A DNA stretch of 38,396 nt from positions 1-38,396 of the forward strand of contig JAOQAF010000087.1 of the NCBI GenBank assembly GCA_025963735.1, read 5' to 3'. Numbering within the stretch: position 1 is the first letter of the stretch; each line of letters opens with the position of its first letter. The translations under genes were made by a program, and so were the position numbers. This document shows positions 5,800 through 32,743 of the stretch, piece after piece. The notes beneath the pieces were generated by a model. That model ran no database searches, had not been told where the DNA came from, and saw only the letters and a program-made list of their open reading frames with translations. This DNA is from Bacteroidota bacterium (GTDB taxonomy: Bacteria > Bacteroidota > Bacteroidia > B-17B0 > Aurantibacillaceae).

Positions 5800-6315
5800 C
5801 AGCCCTGGTTGATATTCTCACCAAAAAGCATTGGTCTTAAACTAATGGTTTGATTTTGAATTAAAAGCCAAGCCTTCGACTCAGCCAACTCTTTTACTTC
5901 GAACACTCTTCTACTTCGAACACTCTTCGAATACGCTCACTCTTCTACTTCGAACACTCTTCGACTACGCTCACTCTTCGACTACGCTCACTCTTCGACT
6001 ACGCTCACTCTTCGACTACGCTCAGAGTGACCTACTGACAGAGAGTATCAGAATATCAGGGATTCTACGCTCAGAGTGACCTCATTGATAGAAGAGTATC
6101 GGAATATTCAGGATCTTTCAACCCTTGTTGGTGTTCTCGCCAACAATCACTACACTTAAACTAATACAGGATTGTTTCGACATTAAAAGTCAGCCTTCGA
6201 CCGCATCCACGCTCCGACTACGCTCACTCTTCGACTACGCTCAGAGTGACCTACTGACAGAAGAGTTCGGAATATTCGGGATTCTACGTTCAGAGTGACC
6301 TCACTGAATGAGAGA
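5800..6315. repeat. Dispersed-repeat intergenic region with two diverged copies of a ~200 bp module
   Basis: Shared landmarks: 'TTCTC(A/G)CCAA', 'CTTAAACTAAT', 'ATTAAAAG(C/T)CA', 'CTTCGA...CTCAGAGTGACCTACTGACAG', 'GGAATATTC'. Confidence 0.7.
5888..6023. repeat. Tandem array of 8 x 17-bp units (ACTCTTCGACTACGCTC and ACTCTTCTACTTCGAAC variants)
   Basis: Eight contiguous 17-mers read directly: 5888, 5905, 5922, 5939, 5956, 5973, 5990, 6007. Confidence 0.9.
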
Positions 6316-20139: not shown

Positions 20140-20870
20140 ATTACCGCATTCTCATCACCGTCTTTGCGAGGCTTTATAAAAATTATCGCAGCCGAAGCAA
20201 TCTCCACCAAAAACAATTAATTAATTCTGTGCCTTCGAGAGCCTCAGGAACCTGTGAGGTGGAACCTTCGAGATGCCGGGTTCAACAAGAGGTGCCTGAC
20301 TTTATCGAGATCCTATCGATTGTGCGTAAGATCCCTGATTATGTAATCCGTCTTTGCAAGGCTTAGTTGAAAATATTGAAGCCGAAGCAATCTTTCTCAA
20401 AACCCTTAACACATGGCCTTCAAGAGCCTCAGGCAACGTAATGCAAAAGAGATTGCCGCGCCCAACAGGACCTGGTTAATGCGGCCGCAATGACAATGCG
20501 GGCCTACTCCGTCTTTGCGAGGAGGAACGACGAAGCAATCTAATAACCAGAAGCCCTGTCCACTAATCACCGTTTAGAGATTGCCACGCCGCCGGTAATA
20601 TCTGTTGAATGCGGCTCGCAATGACAATGCGGGCCTACTCCGTCTTTGCGAGGGGAACGAGGAAGCAATCTAATAACCAGAAGCCCTGTCCACTAATCAC
20701 CGTTTAGAGATTGCCACGCCGCCGGTAATATCTGTTGAATGCGGCTCACAATGACAATGCGTGCCTACTCCGTCTTTGCGAGGAGGAACGACGAAGCAAT
20801 CTGATTGTGCCTTCGGGAGCCTCAGGCACCCGTTATGTCACCTGAGAGTACTTTCGAGAGCATCAGCCAC
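20140..20870. repeat. Dispersed palindromic repeat cluster including 2 near-identical ~130 bp tandem units (20503-20633, 20634-20763) and partial copies
   Basis: Unit core GTCTTTGCGAGG...GAAGCAATCT...AGATTGCCACGCCG...GCGGCTC(G/A)CAATGAC, with dyad arms GTCtTTGCGAG/CTCGCAATGAC and GCAATCT/AGATTGC. Confidence 0.9.
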
Positions 20871-25043: not shown

Positions 25044-25477
25044 GTCATTCGGAGGAGTGAAGAAATCGACACTTTGGAGTGAGATCGCTTCGGCCTCATT
25101 TTGCTGTACAATGCCTCGCGAAGACGGATTAAAACTGTCATTCCGAGCGACCAAAGGAGTGAAGGAATCTCTGCTTCGGAGATGAGATCGCTTCGGCCTC
25201 CTTTTTCTGTACAATGCCTTGCGAAGACGGCATCCCGTCATTCCGAGGGACCAAAGGAGCGAAGGAATCTCTACTTCGGAGATGAGATCGCTTCGGCCTT
25301 ATTATACTTTACTTTTGCCTCGCGATGACGGATTACAACCGTTATTCCGAGCAACCAAAGGAGCGAAGGAATCTCTACTTCGGATGAGATCGCTTCGGCC
25401 TTATTATACTTTACTTTTGCCTCGTTATGACGGATTACAGCCGTCATTCGAGCGACCAAAGGAGTGAAGGAATCTCG
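25044..25477. repeat. Cluster A of BIME-like palindromic repeats (4 full + 1 half copy)
   Basis: GTCATTCCGAGCGACCAAAGGAGCGAAGGAATCTC..CTTCGG..GAGATCGCTTCGGCC...GCCTCGCGATGACGG at about 25044, 25137, 25237, 25341 and half copy 25443. Confidence 0.92.
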
Positions 25478-27412: not shown

Positions 27413-28474
27413 ATGAAGCAATTATTCATTTTATCGGCGTTTACATCCTTTTCGTTTAATGTAAGTTCTCAAACCGTTTATTCAGATCAGCGTGTCATAA
27501 ATATATCTGACTTTATCTATCAATTAGAAAGAAGAGATTCCGGTTTAACAGCCGAGCTATCCTCCATGGATAAAGCCATGTTTTTTACAGGTGATGCGAG
27601 TCATGGTATTACCGTTTGCGGAAATTTAGCGGGCCTGGGGAAACAAAGCTTCGCTCTTAGCGGGATGGCAATTGATCTGGTAATTGAAGCAGGCGAAGTG
27701 TTAACCCAAAAGACAAATGAGAAGGGTCATTTTAGTTTTCCGGGTATTGATCCTGCTAAAAACTACAGTTTACGTTTAAATAAAGAGGCCGCAAAAACAA
27801 TCAAGTCAGATAAAATTATTATTACCGATTGCACCGGTAAAATTGTAAAGACCATAGATAAAAGTGCCGACGGTTCTTTTGAATACAAGGTACTTGATTC
27901 AGATAAAGCGCAGTTAAACACAATCGGCGATCCTGACCCGGTTATGAAATTAAAAGCAATAAAAGAAAATTATAAAAAATTACAGGAAGAAAATACCGTT
28001 GCAAAGGCTTGTAAAGGAAATTATGATTCGTTGCAGGTAAAGTATAACGACCTTGAAAAAAAATACAATGATCTTAAAAATAATTCAGCCGCAAAAAATT
28101 CTGATTCCGACGATCTGTTAAAGGATCCAACAAAAAACGGACAATATTTAAAAAATATTCCTTTTAAAATTAATAACTCCGCTATTGATGAAACAGCGCA
28201 TGCTGCCCTGGAAGAAGCCATTATTCAAATTAAAGGAAATAAAACACTTAAGTTTAATATTATTGGTCACAGTGATAATACCGGTACGGAAGCTAAAAAC
28301 GAAGCCTTATCAAAAAGTCGTGCTATGGCAGTAAAAAATTACCTGATTTCTAAAGGGGTTAAAGCTTCTAATATATCCTGTCAATGGTTTAGCGCCACAC
28401 AGCCGCTGGCATCTAATGATACAGAGGAAGGCAGGGCTAAGAACCGCAGGGTGGAGATTAAGGTGAAGAAGTAA
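27413..28474 (+). CDS. OmpA-family protein with coiled-coil linker
   Basis: C-terminal OmpA domain (FNIIGHSDNTGTEAKNEALSKSRAMAVKNYLISKGVKASNISCQWFSATQPLASNDTEEGRAKNRRVEIKV); central EKKYNDLKNN coiled coil. Confidence 0.92.
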   Translation: MKQLFILSAFTSFSFNVSSQTVYSDQRVINISDFIYQLERRDSGLTAELSSMDKAMFFTGDASHGITVCGNLAGLGKQSFALSGMAIDLVIEAGEVLTQKTNEKGHFSFPGIDPAKNYSLRLNKEAAKTIKSDKIIITDCTGKIVKTIDKSADGSFEYKVLDSDKAQLNTIGDPDPVMKLKAIKENYKKLQEENTVAKACKGNYDSLQVKYNDLEKKYNDLKNNSAAKNSDSDDLLKDPTKNGQYLKNIPFKINNSAIDETAHAALEEAIIQIKGNKTLKFNIIGHSDNTGTEAKNEALSKSRAMAVKNYLISKGVKASNISCQWFSATQPLASNDTEEGRAKNRRVEIKVKK

Positions 28475-28557
28475 TTTGGAGTTTCATTCTTTCTCGCAGA
28501 GCTTCGCAAAGGTTTCGCGAAGAACGCAGAGTACCTCGCGATGACGATGAAAAAGCC

Positions 28558-28692
28558 GTCATTCCGAGCGACTTAAGGAGCGAAGGAATCTCCGTTTCGG
28601 TGTAAGATCGCTTCGGCTTTATTATACTTTACTGCTTCACGATGACGACGAAAAAGCCGTCATTCCGAGCGACTTAAGGAGCGAAGGAATCT
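28558..28692. repeat. Cluster B BIME-like repeats (1 full + 1 half)
   Basis: GTCATTCCGAGCGACTTAAGGAGCGAAGGAATCT at 28558 and 28659. Confidence 0.9.
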
Positions 28693-28697
28693 AATTT

Positions 28698-28970
28698 CCT
28701 TTCTTTTTCCTTGATGAAAACCCTTCCGCAGGCTCAGGGTAAAATCCACAAAAAATCAAGGCTACAAAGTCTTCCTTGATTTGTAGTTTAAATTTTTTCT
28801 TTGTCACCGACGAACTCGGCCCATATAATTATCACGGTGGGCCTCAAACAGCGCCGGCTCGAATAAATTTTAAAAAATGGAGCGATGCATATATGCGATA
28901 CATGCTATAATTTTTAAAATTCCGGGGTGAAAAATTTAAACACAAACCTGAAGGAATACTTTGAGGCCCC
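28698..28970 (-). repeat. Structured element, copy 3 (inverted, diverged)
   Basis: Reverse complement aligns with copies 1/2: GGCCTCAAAGTATTCC..CACCCCG..AT-rich inverted repeat..GAGCCGGCGCTGTTTGA..hairpin..CGAGTTCG..AAGACTTTGTAGCCTTGATTTTT..AAAGAAAGG. Confidence 0.82.
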
Positions 28971-28986
28971 CATTACTTATCACCAC

Positions 28987-29230
28987 GTCATTCCGAGCGA
29001 CACGTAAGGAGAGAAGGAATCTCCGTTTGGGTGTAAGATCGCTTCGGCCTAAATATACTATTGTTGCCTCGCGATGACGATGAAAAAAGCCGTCATTCCG
29101 AGCGACTTAAGGAGCGAAGGAATCTCTATTGGGTGTAAGATCGCTTCGGCCTAATTATATTATTGTTTGTGCCTTGCGAAGACGGTGTCCTATCATTCCG
29201 AACGACCCAAAGGAGCGAAGGAATTTCCGT
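28987..29230. repeat. Cluster B BIME-like repeats (2 full + 1 half)
   Basis: Copies starting about 28987, 29092 and half copy 29192. Confidence 0.9.
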
Positions 29231-29605
29231 TTCGGCCTCAAAGAATTCCGTCAAATTTGTTGTGAGGCTTTCTCCACCCCGTCAATTTTTAAATTTAATT
29301 CAATAAGTCTATTTAGGCGCCCTGCCATTTAAAAATTGATAAGAGCCGGCGCTGTTTGAGTCCATGTGAATCTTGTATGGACGAGTTCGCTGGCGACACA
29401 GAGAAAGCCGCAACAAACAAATTAAGGAAGTCTTTGAAGCCTTGACTTTTTGTTTCTTTTTGGTTAAGCAAAAAGAAAGGCTAAATATTAAATTACTTTG
29501 AAACCTTGATTTTGTGTTGATTTTATGCTGCAGCGTCATTCTGCGCATCTTGTCTTGAGGGCAATTGTACATATCGTCCGAGCGACGTGAGGAGCGAAGG
29601 AATCT
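29231..29605 (+). repeat. Structured element, copy 1
   Basis: ~375 bp with about 97% identity by eye to 29715-30088. Confidence 0.92.
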
Positions 29606-29714
29606 CTATTTCGGTGTAAGATCGCTTCGGCCTCATTATTCTGTACAATGCCTCGCGAAGACGGATGAAAAAAGCCGTCATTCCAAGCGACCTAAGGAGC
29701 GAAGGAAGCTCTGC
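29606..29714. repeat. Cluster B BIME-like repeats (3' part of one copy, then one half copy)
   Basis: Remainder of the copy begun at ~29574, then half copy 29676. Confidence 0.85.
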
Positions 29715-30088
29715 TTCGGCCTCAAAGAATTCCGTCAAATTTGTTGTGAGGCTTTCTCCACCCCGTCAATTTTTAAATTTAATTCAATAAGTCTATTTAG
29801 GCGCCCTTCCATTTAAAATTGATAAGAGCCGGCGCTGTTTGAGTCCATGTGAATCTTGTATGGACGAGTTCGCTGGCGACACAGAGAAAGCCGCAATAAA
29901 CAAATTAAGGAAGTCTTTGAAGCCTTGACTTTTTGTTTCTTTTTGGTTAAGCAAAAAGAAAGGCTAAATATTAAATTACTTTGAAACCTTGATTCTGTGT
30001 TGATTTTATGCTACAGGGTCACTCTTCGCATCTTGTCTTGAGGGCAATCGTACATATCGTCCGAGCGACGTGAGGAGCGAAAGAATCT
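29715..30088 (+). repeat. Structured element, copy 2
   Basis: Direct repeat of copy 1, offset 484 bp. Confidence 0.92.
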
Positions 30089-30297
30089 ATACTTCAGAGT
30101 TGAGATCGCGTCGGCCTGATAAATCGTTTGTAAGCCTCGCGATGACTCCCCTGCCTCCCCGTCATTCCGAGCGACTTAAGGAGCGAAGGAATCTCCGTTT
30201 CGGTGTAAGATCGCTTCGGCTTTATTATTCTTTACTGCCTCGCGATGACGATGAAAAAAGCCGTCATTCCGAGCGACGTAAGAAGCGAAGGAATCTT
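30089..30297. repeat. Cluster B BIME-like repeats (3 copies, last one half)
   Basis: Copies at about 30058-30146, 30160-30250, 30263-30297. Confidence 0.9.
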
Positions 30298-30367: not shown

Positions 30368-32743
30368 TTAAGCCGTAGCTTTTTGAAAAATCTTTTTCCA
30401 CCACGGTAAATCTGTTGTATTATCGTAACCATATCCATAACCGTAACCGTAGCCATACCCGTAACCATAGCCGCTATGTGCATCGGCGCCGTTAATCAGT
30501 ACTGCCATGTTAGGCAAACGCTTTTCTTTATTTAAAGTTTCAGCAATCCGCAGCATGCGTTTATCCAGGTAATTGGCGCGGGCCACAAACACCGTACAAT
30601 CAGCGCAACCACTTATTAATAGAGTATCCGCCACTAAACCCACAGGGGCGGTATCAACAATCACATAATCGTATTCTCTTTTTACTATTTCAAATAAATC
30701 TTTTATCCGCGGATTCATTAACAATTCTGCAGGATTTGGGGGTATAGGGCCCGAAGGCAAAATAGATAAATCTTTAAACTCCGGTATCTGAAATACAATA
30801 TCGTTAATGCTTAAGTCCTGGTCCATTACATAATTGGTAAGACCTTTTTTATCGGCTAAATTTAAATAGGCTAATATTTTTGGTACCCGTAAATCCGTTC
30901 CTATTAGTAAGGTTTTTTTACCTGACAAGGCAAAAGAAGCTGCCAGATTTAAAGCAATAAACGATTTACCTTCTTTACCAATTGTAGACGTAACAAAAAC
31001 AGTGCGGTTCTCTCCCACACTTTTATTGGTTATAAATTCCACGTTGGTTCGCAATAAACGGAAGGCCTCGGCAATGTTTGAGCGATCTTTTTCAAGAACT
31101 ACCAATTTGCTTTTTGAACTTGTTAGTGGAATATCGCCCAGGTAAGGCAGCTTTACAAAATCAGTGTCTTTTTTACCATGCACTTTTGTATCCAACAGAT
31201 CTAAAATAATCAGAACAACAATAGGCAGAATCAACCCTATCAGAAAGGCGGATAAATAAATTCTGCTTTTGTTAGGGGCTACTAATGCGCCGTTACTAAA
31301 GGCATGATCAATGACTTTTAAATTAGCTACTGTTACAGCCAGGGCTATGTTTGTCTCTTCACGTTTTTGTAAAAGGTATAAATACAGGGCTTCTTTTATC
31401 TGCTGCTGACGTTGAATAATACGGTACTCCCTTTCGTATTTAGGCACGCTGCCAATTTTAGCGCTTATCTCTTTATCGTTTCTGGTCAGCTCCTTCAATT
31501 TAATTTGTAAGGCTCCTTTGTAATTATTCAGACTTTCTTTTATGGACGAGCGGATCCCTTGCAATTGGCTATTTATATTTTCAACCACCGGATTTTTTTC
31601 ACTGCTGTTCTTTAAGATACGGTTGCGTTCAAGGATCAATTTATTGTAATCAGCAATTTGCAAAGAAAGTGATGCATCCGATAAACCTAAATTCGATGGA
31701 AGCAATTCACTCTCTCCAGAATGTTTCTGAATGTACTCGTTCATAAAATCGGAAAGCTGCAATTGGGTGTTAAGATCCAGCAAGCTCATCTCGCTTACTT
31801 TGCCGGTTTCTAAAAACAATTTTGCTTCCGATTCCACATCGGTTAGTTTATGTTTGGTCTTAAAATCTTCCGCCTCACCTTCCACTGAAGAGAGTTCACG
31901 TGAAATAAACTGTATCCGCTCATTGATGAAATCAGCAGTATTTTTGCTTACCTGGTTCTTATCGGCAATTGCATCTGCATTATGTTGGCGGATGAGATCG
32001 TCAATAATATTACTTGCCTTTTCAATAACCGGGTCCTGTAATGTGAGCATTAAAACTCCTGACGATTTATTTACCGGATTGATTTGTAAGGCCGACCGGT
32101 ATTGATCCGCCACATCTATAACCGGAGCTACTCTTACATGAATATCCTGCCCTTCATAATAATTTGGTTCATTTGTTAGGGTAATGATAAAACGACCTAA
32201 TTCATTCTTAATTATTTCTCCGAATTTATATTTACCCGTTTGTTCGCCTTCTTCATTTTTTAAAATGAAGCTATTTTTGGATTCTATTGTTAAATAAAAA
32301 GAAGCGTATTTGTTCAACAGATTTGAGTCTCCATTTATAACATTTACTATAACAGGCGTATGTTTGTATAACTCGCTCTCAAGGTGTTTTTCTTTTATAA
32401 AATACTGGATGTTTAATTTTAATTCCTTTACTACACGCGTCATCAGAGCCCTTGATTTAAGGATCTCTATCTCGTTTTCAATATTGTTACTTTTCTTTAA
32501 AAGGCCAAGATCTTCAAAGGCGCTGAGTTCGGATAATTCGCCTTTTTTATCGTCTTTAATTAAAATAGTACCATTTACTTCGTATAAAGGCGTTTGATAT
32601 TTTAGATAATAACGACCGGCAATCAATGCTATAACAATGCTTAGCAAAAACCATTTCCAGTGGTACAGGTATTTAAATAAAAGATCCTTTAAACTGTTTT
32701 CCTGGTTCTCTTCAACCGAAAAATTATACTGTTCTAATTCCAT
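30368..32743 (-). CDS. Wzc-like polysaccharide copolymerase / BY-type tyrosine autokinase with (GY)8 C-terminal tail
   Basis: Wzz domain, coiled coil, TM segments, CpsD/CapB kinase domain (VFVTSTIGKEGKSFIALNLAASFALSGKKTLLIGTDLRVPK; YDYVIVDTAPVGLVAD), C-terminal GYGYGYGYGYGYGYGY. Confidence 0.95.
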   Translation of the reverse strand: MELEQYNFSVEENQENSLKDLLFKYLYHWKWFLLSIVIALIAGRYYLKYQTPLYEVNGTILIKDDKKGELSELSAFEDLGLLKKSNNIENEIEILKSRALMTRVVKELKLNIQYFIKEKHLESELYKHTPVIVNVINGDSNLLNKYASFYLTIESKNSFILKNEEGEQTGKYKFGEIIKNELGRFIITLTNEPNYYEGQDIHVRVAPVIDVADQYRSALQINPVNKSSGVLMLTLQDPVIEKASNIIDDLIRQHNADAIADKNQVSKNTADFINERIQFISRELSSVEGEAEDFKTKHKLTDVESEAKLFLETGKVSEMSLLDLNTQLQLSDFMNEYIQKHSGESELLPSNLGLSDASLSLQIADYNKLILERNRILKNSSEKNPVVENINSQLQGIRSSIKESLNNYKGALQIKLKELTRNDKEISAKIGSVPKYEREYRIIQRQQQIKEALYLYLLQKREETNIALAVTVANLKVIDHAFSNGALVAPNKSRIYLSAFLIGLILPIVVLIILDLLDTKVHGKKDTDFVKLPYLGDIPLTSSKSKLVVLEKDRSNIAEAFRLLRTNVEFITNKSVGENRTVFVTSTIGKEGKSFIALNLAASFALSGKKTLLIGTDLRVPKILAYLNLADKKGLTNYVMDQDLSINDIVFQIPEFKDLSILPSGPIPPNPAELLMNPRIKDLFEIVKREYDYVIVDTAPVGLVADTLLISGCADCTVFVARANYLDKRMLRIAETLNKEKRLPNMAVLINGADAHSGYGYGYGYGYGYGYGYDNTTDLPWWKKIFQKATA

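Follow-up and report, generated by a model that had tools for sequence, protein, structure and literature searches.

A dispersed family of short structured non-coding elements in Bacteroidota with a fold kept by compensatory change

Three related repeats, each with a small hairpin next to a shared sequence block, lie in a 1.9-kb intergenic gap of a Bacteroidota contig, between an OmpA-domain gene and a Wzz/GNVR/AAA_31 gene that probably encodes a tyrosine kinase of the Wzc type. The locus raises the question of whether selection acts on a structure in these repeats and, if so, to what kind of element the structure belongs. The whole stretch of DNA analysed, 38,396 nucleotides, is referred to here as the window. 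An initial annotation had proposed a structured element from the three copies in the window. Our analysis confirmed that this observation is real and larger than first reported; the structured element stood, and what had been missed was the place of the hairpin in a larger fold and a phylum-wide, mobile-looking family to which the copies belong.

Copies 1 (29231-29605) and 2 (29715-30088) are direct repeats, as had been described, and copy 3 is inverted and diverged (about 70% identity). The extents of the repeats were retained and the structured core was bounded anew, as given in the first three lines below. R1 in these lines denotes a covariance model of the 3' part of the element.

29234-29480, plus strand: structured core of copy 1, spanning the left end GGCCTCAAAG through the tail hairpin (repeat and covariance-model match)
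29718-29963, plus strand: structured core of copy 2, a segmental duplicate of copy 1, REP flanks included (97% identity to copy 1)
28699-28968, minus strand: structured core of copy 3, in which a small palindrome, ACCCT...AGGGT, takes the place of the tail hairpin's 5' strand (R1 match and fold)
28969-29233, no strand: CGTC-type REP spacer that separates copies 3 and 1, an inverted pair with the left ends facing inward (repeat families D1/D3)
27413-28474, plus strand: OmpA-domain gene
30368-32743, minus strand: Wzz/GNVR/AAA_31 gene

The R1 model matched copy 1 at 29343-29480 and copy 2 at 29826-29963 with 136 bits each, and copy 3 at 28699-28860 on the minus strand with 105 bits. The RNA fold of copy 1 has an energy of -80.8 kcal/mol (z -6.1), and that of copy 3 has a z-score of -4.6. 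The unit duplicated between copies 1 and 2 is about 410 bp long, flanking REP sequence included, at an offset of 483-484 bp. The arrangement seen in copies 3 and 1 recurs at 12 further places. The 17-mer GAGCCGGCGCTGTTTGA (29343-29359 in copy 1) is found in all three copies. The hairpin arms reported earlier were also recovered, GTCCAT (29360-29365) and ATGGAC (29377-29382) in copies 1 and 2 and GGCCCA and TGGGCC (28818-28843) in copy 3, together with the three two-sided changes that separate copy 3 from the other two.

The window copies are surrounded by CGTC-type REP repeats of about 100 nt. These repeats (CGTCATTCCGAGCGACTTAAGGAGCGAAGGAATCTC...GATCGCTTCGG) occur in 14 copies at 25052-25476 and 28531-30296, with the structured element among and beside them, and resemble the CGTC-type REPs described earlier (PMC3733652). 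A second REP-like family forms a tandem array of 130 bp (CGTCTTTGCGAGGAGGAACGACGAAGCAATCT) at 20158-20869, and a 17-bp repeat (CACTCTTCGACTACGCT and variants) forms another array at 5857-6026. No tRNA or tmRNA was found in the window.

Analysis of the structure revealed that the 6-bp hairpin is the tip of a larger conserved fold consisting of three helical parts (P1, P2 and P3) and a 3' tail hairpin. In correctly oriented copies the core begins with GGCCTCAAAGAAATTCCG...GATTTG and ends with CAAATCAAGGAATTTCTTTGTGAGCCTTGAY, and these ends pair into the long terminal stem P1. The parts of the fold in copy 1 are as follows.

29234-29274, plus strand: 5' strand of the terminal stem P1, paired with 29401-29441 in the minimum-energy fold
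29401-29441, plus strand: 3' strand of the terminal stem P1 (minimum-energy fold; covariation in relatives)
29281-29341, plus strand: P2, an A+T-rich hairpin with arms at about 29281-29294 and 29327-29341 (two-sided changes)
29345-29394, plus strand: P3, a two-part hairpin (covariation in several alignments and in a loop-anchored analysis)
29345-29351 and 29388-29394, plus strand: outer helix of P3, GCCGGCG and CGCTGGC
29352-29359 and 29383-29387, plus strand: invariant internal loop of P3, CTGTYTGA and GAGTT
29360-29365 and 29377-29382, plus strand: inner helix of P3, the hairpin of the initial annotation
29441-29478, plus strand: tail, with CTTGAC at 29441-29446 followed by a hairpin (29453-29462 and 29469-29478)
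29463-29468, plus strand: loop of the tail hairpin, GTTAAG, complementary to CTTGAC

The block next to the hairpin had been described as invariant and single-stranded. All three copies share it, and it is single-stranded only in part, since GCCGGCG pairs with CGCTGGC; the internal loop in the region of the 17-mer is limited to CTGTTTGA and GAGTT. Tandem sheared G.A pairs may form in this loop (TGAG opposite CGAG), an untested inference from known motifs. The tail follows P1 and consists of CTTGAN, then a T-run, then a hairpin. The 6-nt loop of this hairpin is complementary to CTTGAN, and a pseudoknot or an alternative pairing between the two is possible. No T-run follows the tail hairpin.

In several copies a small palindrome stands in for the 5' strand of the tail hairpin, bounded exactly by CTTGAY-TTTTTG on one side and RTCAAG-CAAAAAG on the other. 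Such sites were found at 28699-28760 in the window, at 3543-3600 of L087 and at about 10330-10380 of L080, and the exchange is visible at an orthologous locus when L080 (genome G019) is compared with L077 (genome G021).

The claim that selection acts on structure was supported by three alignments and by a loop-anchored analysis. The genus alignment of 23 relatives contained 84 two-sided cells against 30.7 ± 4.0 after shuffling and 13-29 in slid controls, with two-sided changes in 25 of 49 pairs; such changes were found at 11 of the 24 pairs of P1 in relatives and at 7 of the 11 pairs of P2. Across the class, 20 of the 23 modelled pairs showed two-sided changes, and 216 two-sided cells were counted against 60.8 ± 6.1 after shuffling and 15-49 with partners slid (score 0.634 against 0.05-0.16). 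The observed covariation was reached by none of 500 shuffles, and the slid controls collapsed. Shuffles ignore relatedness, and the slid controls together with the spread across many genera are the better guard. As the class-wide alignment had been fitted to the model, the test was repeated with the invariant loop as the only anchor, and the outer helix of P3 was paired in 92% of cases against 46% when the 3' arms were dealt among elements; the loci used were chosen for a stem of at least five of seven pairs, which inflates the figure of 92%. The tail stem covaries as well, and so does the loop of the tail hairpin with the upstream CTTGAN, the last loop pair being T-A in 54 cases, C-G in 19, A-T in 11 and mismatched in four. 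G.T cells far outnumbered A.C cells (44 against 10, and 14 against 3 class-wide), and therefore the folding strand is one strand, that ending in the tail. Overall, the covariation is overwhelming and the fold is kept by compensatory change on one defined strand.

The window copies are members of a dispersed repeat family with nine clear copies in the source genome. Searches at the DNA level, the first check that the initial annotation had suggested, identified seven long copies in the source genome and produced matches in 27 of the 59 other genomes searched. With the covariance model, the second check, 13 matches were obtained in the source genome, nine of them scoring above 88 bits. The model also matched in 32 of the 40 genus genomes, in 101 of the 295 class genomes (67 of the 155 sampled genera) and in 48 of 198 genomes from a phylum sample, among them members of families outside the class; many of the distant phylum-wide matches cover the tail only. 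The exact core pattern was found in 15 stretches in named genomes, every one in Bacteroidota MAGs, and no match was found in the viral contigs and plasmids searched. Copy number is highly variable, down to zero in some complete congeners, and several subfamilies occur in each genome.

Comparison with Rfam 15, a further check suggested there, found no family that matches the element, permissive mode included; the sole match was a Flavo-1 hairpin next to the element in one relative. Flavo-1 (RF01705; PMC2864571) is, like the element, a dispersed structured motif of Bacteroidetes, and in Flavobacterium psychrophilum it matches sense or antisense of transcripts indistinctly (PMC9723704). Unlike the element, it is a single hairpin of 76 positions with a different sequence, and no match at the gathering score was found in the window. 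The neighbouring match in the relative (L115, 1390-1489) directly adjoins the tail of the element on the outside and is enclosed by an outer inverted repeat, CCTTCGCAAATCTCTCT...AGAGAGATTTGCGAAGG. No description of the element was found in the open-licence literature searched, which is not proof of undescribed status. Overall, the copies form a large family of short non-coding DNA elements that is spread across Bacteroidota and apparently undescribed.

Comparison of loci between relatives revealed turnover. Downstream of one orthologous gene (locus alpha) the element is present in G021, G019, G006 and G034, and no match was found at this position in G012, G061, G007 and G002; the G012 contig itself stops about 200 bp beyond the gene. 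Two diverging elements make up units of about 640 bp, which occupy different loci, or are inverted, among G006, G021 and G019. Neighbouring elements in the genus are divergent in 11 cases, convergent in four and tandem in seven, pairs with the 5' ends inward being common, and some other genera have tandem arrays of the element. Three contigs of the source genome (L086, L087 and L088) carry paralogous clusters with a gene that is patatin-like by eye, and in each an element copy directly follows the preceding gene. The flanks in L086 and L087 are 96% identical and the element is in opposite orientations; the whole gap differs and gives no empty-site proof.

In two distant genomes the copies are contained in units about 260-480 bp long that are bounded by terminal inverted repeats and carry 8-bp target duplications. 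Copies of G077 at unrelated sites share the ends CATGWGTMTCCG (inverted) and 8-bp duplications; in these, 4.8 of 8 letters agree, compared with 2.7 between mismatched pairs (p 0.0002). The four copies of G316 with the ends GGYAMTGATATACAAG agree at 6-8 of 8 letters in the duplications (p 0.0035 for the whole set). The frames of the target duplications were picked after the sequences had been seen. Discrete units of 474-480 bp with 13-bp terminal repeats occur in G114, in which target duplications were not significant. Similar cores were found in different flanks in G316, so no single set of ends goes with the core. The window copies show neither terminal repeats nor target duplications, the scores for terminal repeats around them not exceeding the shuffled mean. 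The search for an autonomous partner was unsuccessful; the end motifs of G316 and G114 were searched, and the places read, which were not all of them, had no transposase between paired ends.

These results are best accounted for, with a probability of roughly 0.6, if the window copies represent the structured, conserved core of a MITE-like mobile element that is non-autonomous, belongs to a Bacteroidota-wide superfamily and is served by its one-strand fold. The structure under selection on one strand, the dispersal, the turnover and the units with terminal inverted repeats in relatives are observed. By inference, the units would be mobilised in trans by transposases that recognise the terminal repeats. 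Also by inference, the fold would serve the element itself, in the form of either a transcript or single-stranded DNA that becomes exposed in the course of replication or transposition. The window copies would be remnants, decayed and nested, consisting of an inverted pair whose halves are separated by REPs and of one segmental duplicate. Of the described systems, MITEs come nearest in mobility and Flavo-1 as a dispersed structured motif. Bacterial MITEs, such as the QMITE elements of Coxiella (PMC10969869), share with this element the short, non-coding, intergenic and multi-copy character and transcripts that would fold strongly; the terminal inverted repeats and 8-bp target duplications of its relatives are a further likeness, and a length of about 250-480 bp without a transposase gene meets the criterion for a MITE. 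The element differs from MITEs in that its conserved part is an internal one-strand fold with class-wide compensatory change, combined with several different terminal repeats, and in that terminal repeats were not detected around the window copies and the places read in G316 and G114 gave no parent IS. The term MITE-like is used because ends and duplications were seen only in relatives. The initial annotation had allowed that a known IS, with its terminal hairpins, might explain the signal; this condition did not hold. Some relatives do lie inside MITE-like units, but the part that covaries is internal and occurs with more than one set of terminal repeats, and no parent IS was identified in the places read. 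Movement of a MITE as double-stranded DNA gives no obvious reason for a conserved internal fold, and hence the role of the fold is inferred only.

Among other explanations, multi-copy genes for a host non-coding RNA that acts in trans, scattered and multiplied by gene duplication, remain possible and are unlikely. A strand-specific structure with G.T pairs and covariation is what is expected of a functional RNA. However, no shared promoter, the Bacteroidota promoter motif included, was found among the copies; locus alpha is not syntenically conserved across the genus, copy number varies down to zero in complete congeners, each genome holds several subfamilies and the units of relatives carry target duplications.

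Slightly less support remains for a REP/BIME-type element whose hairpins are recognised as single-stranded DNA by a Y1 transposase, RAYT or IS200-like (PMC2817692, PMC6006769, PMC3733652). As in these systems, the element is palindromic, intergenic, strand-specific and found in inverted pairs, the window copies are embedded in CGTC-type REPs, and "atypical secondary structures" have been described flanking RAYT subclass 2.6 of Bacteroidetes (PMC6006769). The element is nevertheless a multi-branched fold of about 250 nt compared with a hairpin of 20-40 nt, three genomes (G006, G016 and G024) have copies without a Y1_Tnp match, and target duplications in relatives are unexpected for a Y1 mechanism. 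No R1 match below E 0.02 was found at 20 loci around Y1_Tnp genes of the genus, and the RAYT-like genes examined are flanked by short palindromes of their own. Such genes (174-189 aa), seen in L225, L227, L228, L236 and L238, lie between palindromes such as CCGCAGGATTTGCAATCCTGCGG, unlike the element. RAYT-type mobilisation is thus disfavoured and not excluded, since the Y1_Tnp profile is weak for some subclasses. By the tests made, the element is neither Flavo-1 nor a REP/RAYT element.

Analysis of the gene context revealed that the copies are intergenic. Protein coding was excluded, as the longest ORFs are no longer than in shuffled sequence and the lengths are not multiples of three. A linked protein family was rejected because ORFs near copies have only vertical synteny in common, and no protein recurs as a neighbour. 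There is no sign of cis-regulation. A passive element of chromosome structure that is not itself mobile, such as a protein-binding site or a structure at mRNA 3' ends or transcription ends, draws on a mild excess of copies between convergent genes (18 of the 47 with both neighbours known); it is improbable given the unbiased orientation to neighbouring genes (++ 12, -- 10), the absence of a T-run after the tail hairpin and the shared ends and target duplications of relatives. Finally, three copies by themselves are thin evidence, and a coding remnant or chance resemblance with covariation as an artefact of a few related repeats can be dismissed in view of the ORFs, the shuffled and slid controls and the agreement of the loop-anchored analysis.

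A more specific form of the MITE-like explanation is put forward tentatively and is rather doubtful at present: one structured nucleic-acid module, with its conserved internal-loop motif and pseudoknot-like tail pairing, may have spread through the Bacteroidota inside many unrelated MITE-like units, the fold being a working part, as RNA or single-stranded DNA, of an unknown mechanism of mobilisation or element protection.

Our results caution that covarying intergenic hairpins in Bacteroidota can be parts of mobile elements rather than of gene regulation. Rfam has no entry for this structured element, which covaries clearly and occurs in 67 of the 155 genera sampled from a major bacterial class. 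If the fold is a working part of the element, it would point to a mechanism of transposition or self-protection in which an RNA or single-stranded DNA structure, and not the terminal repeats, is the conserved component. The element would also explain much unannotated intergenic DNA in Bacteroidota.
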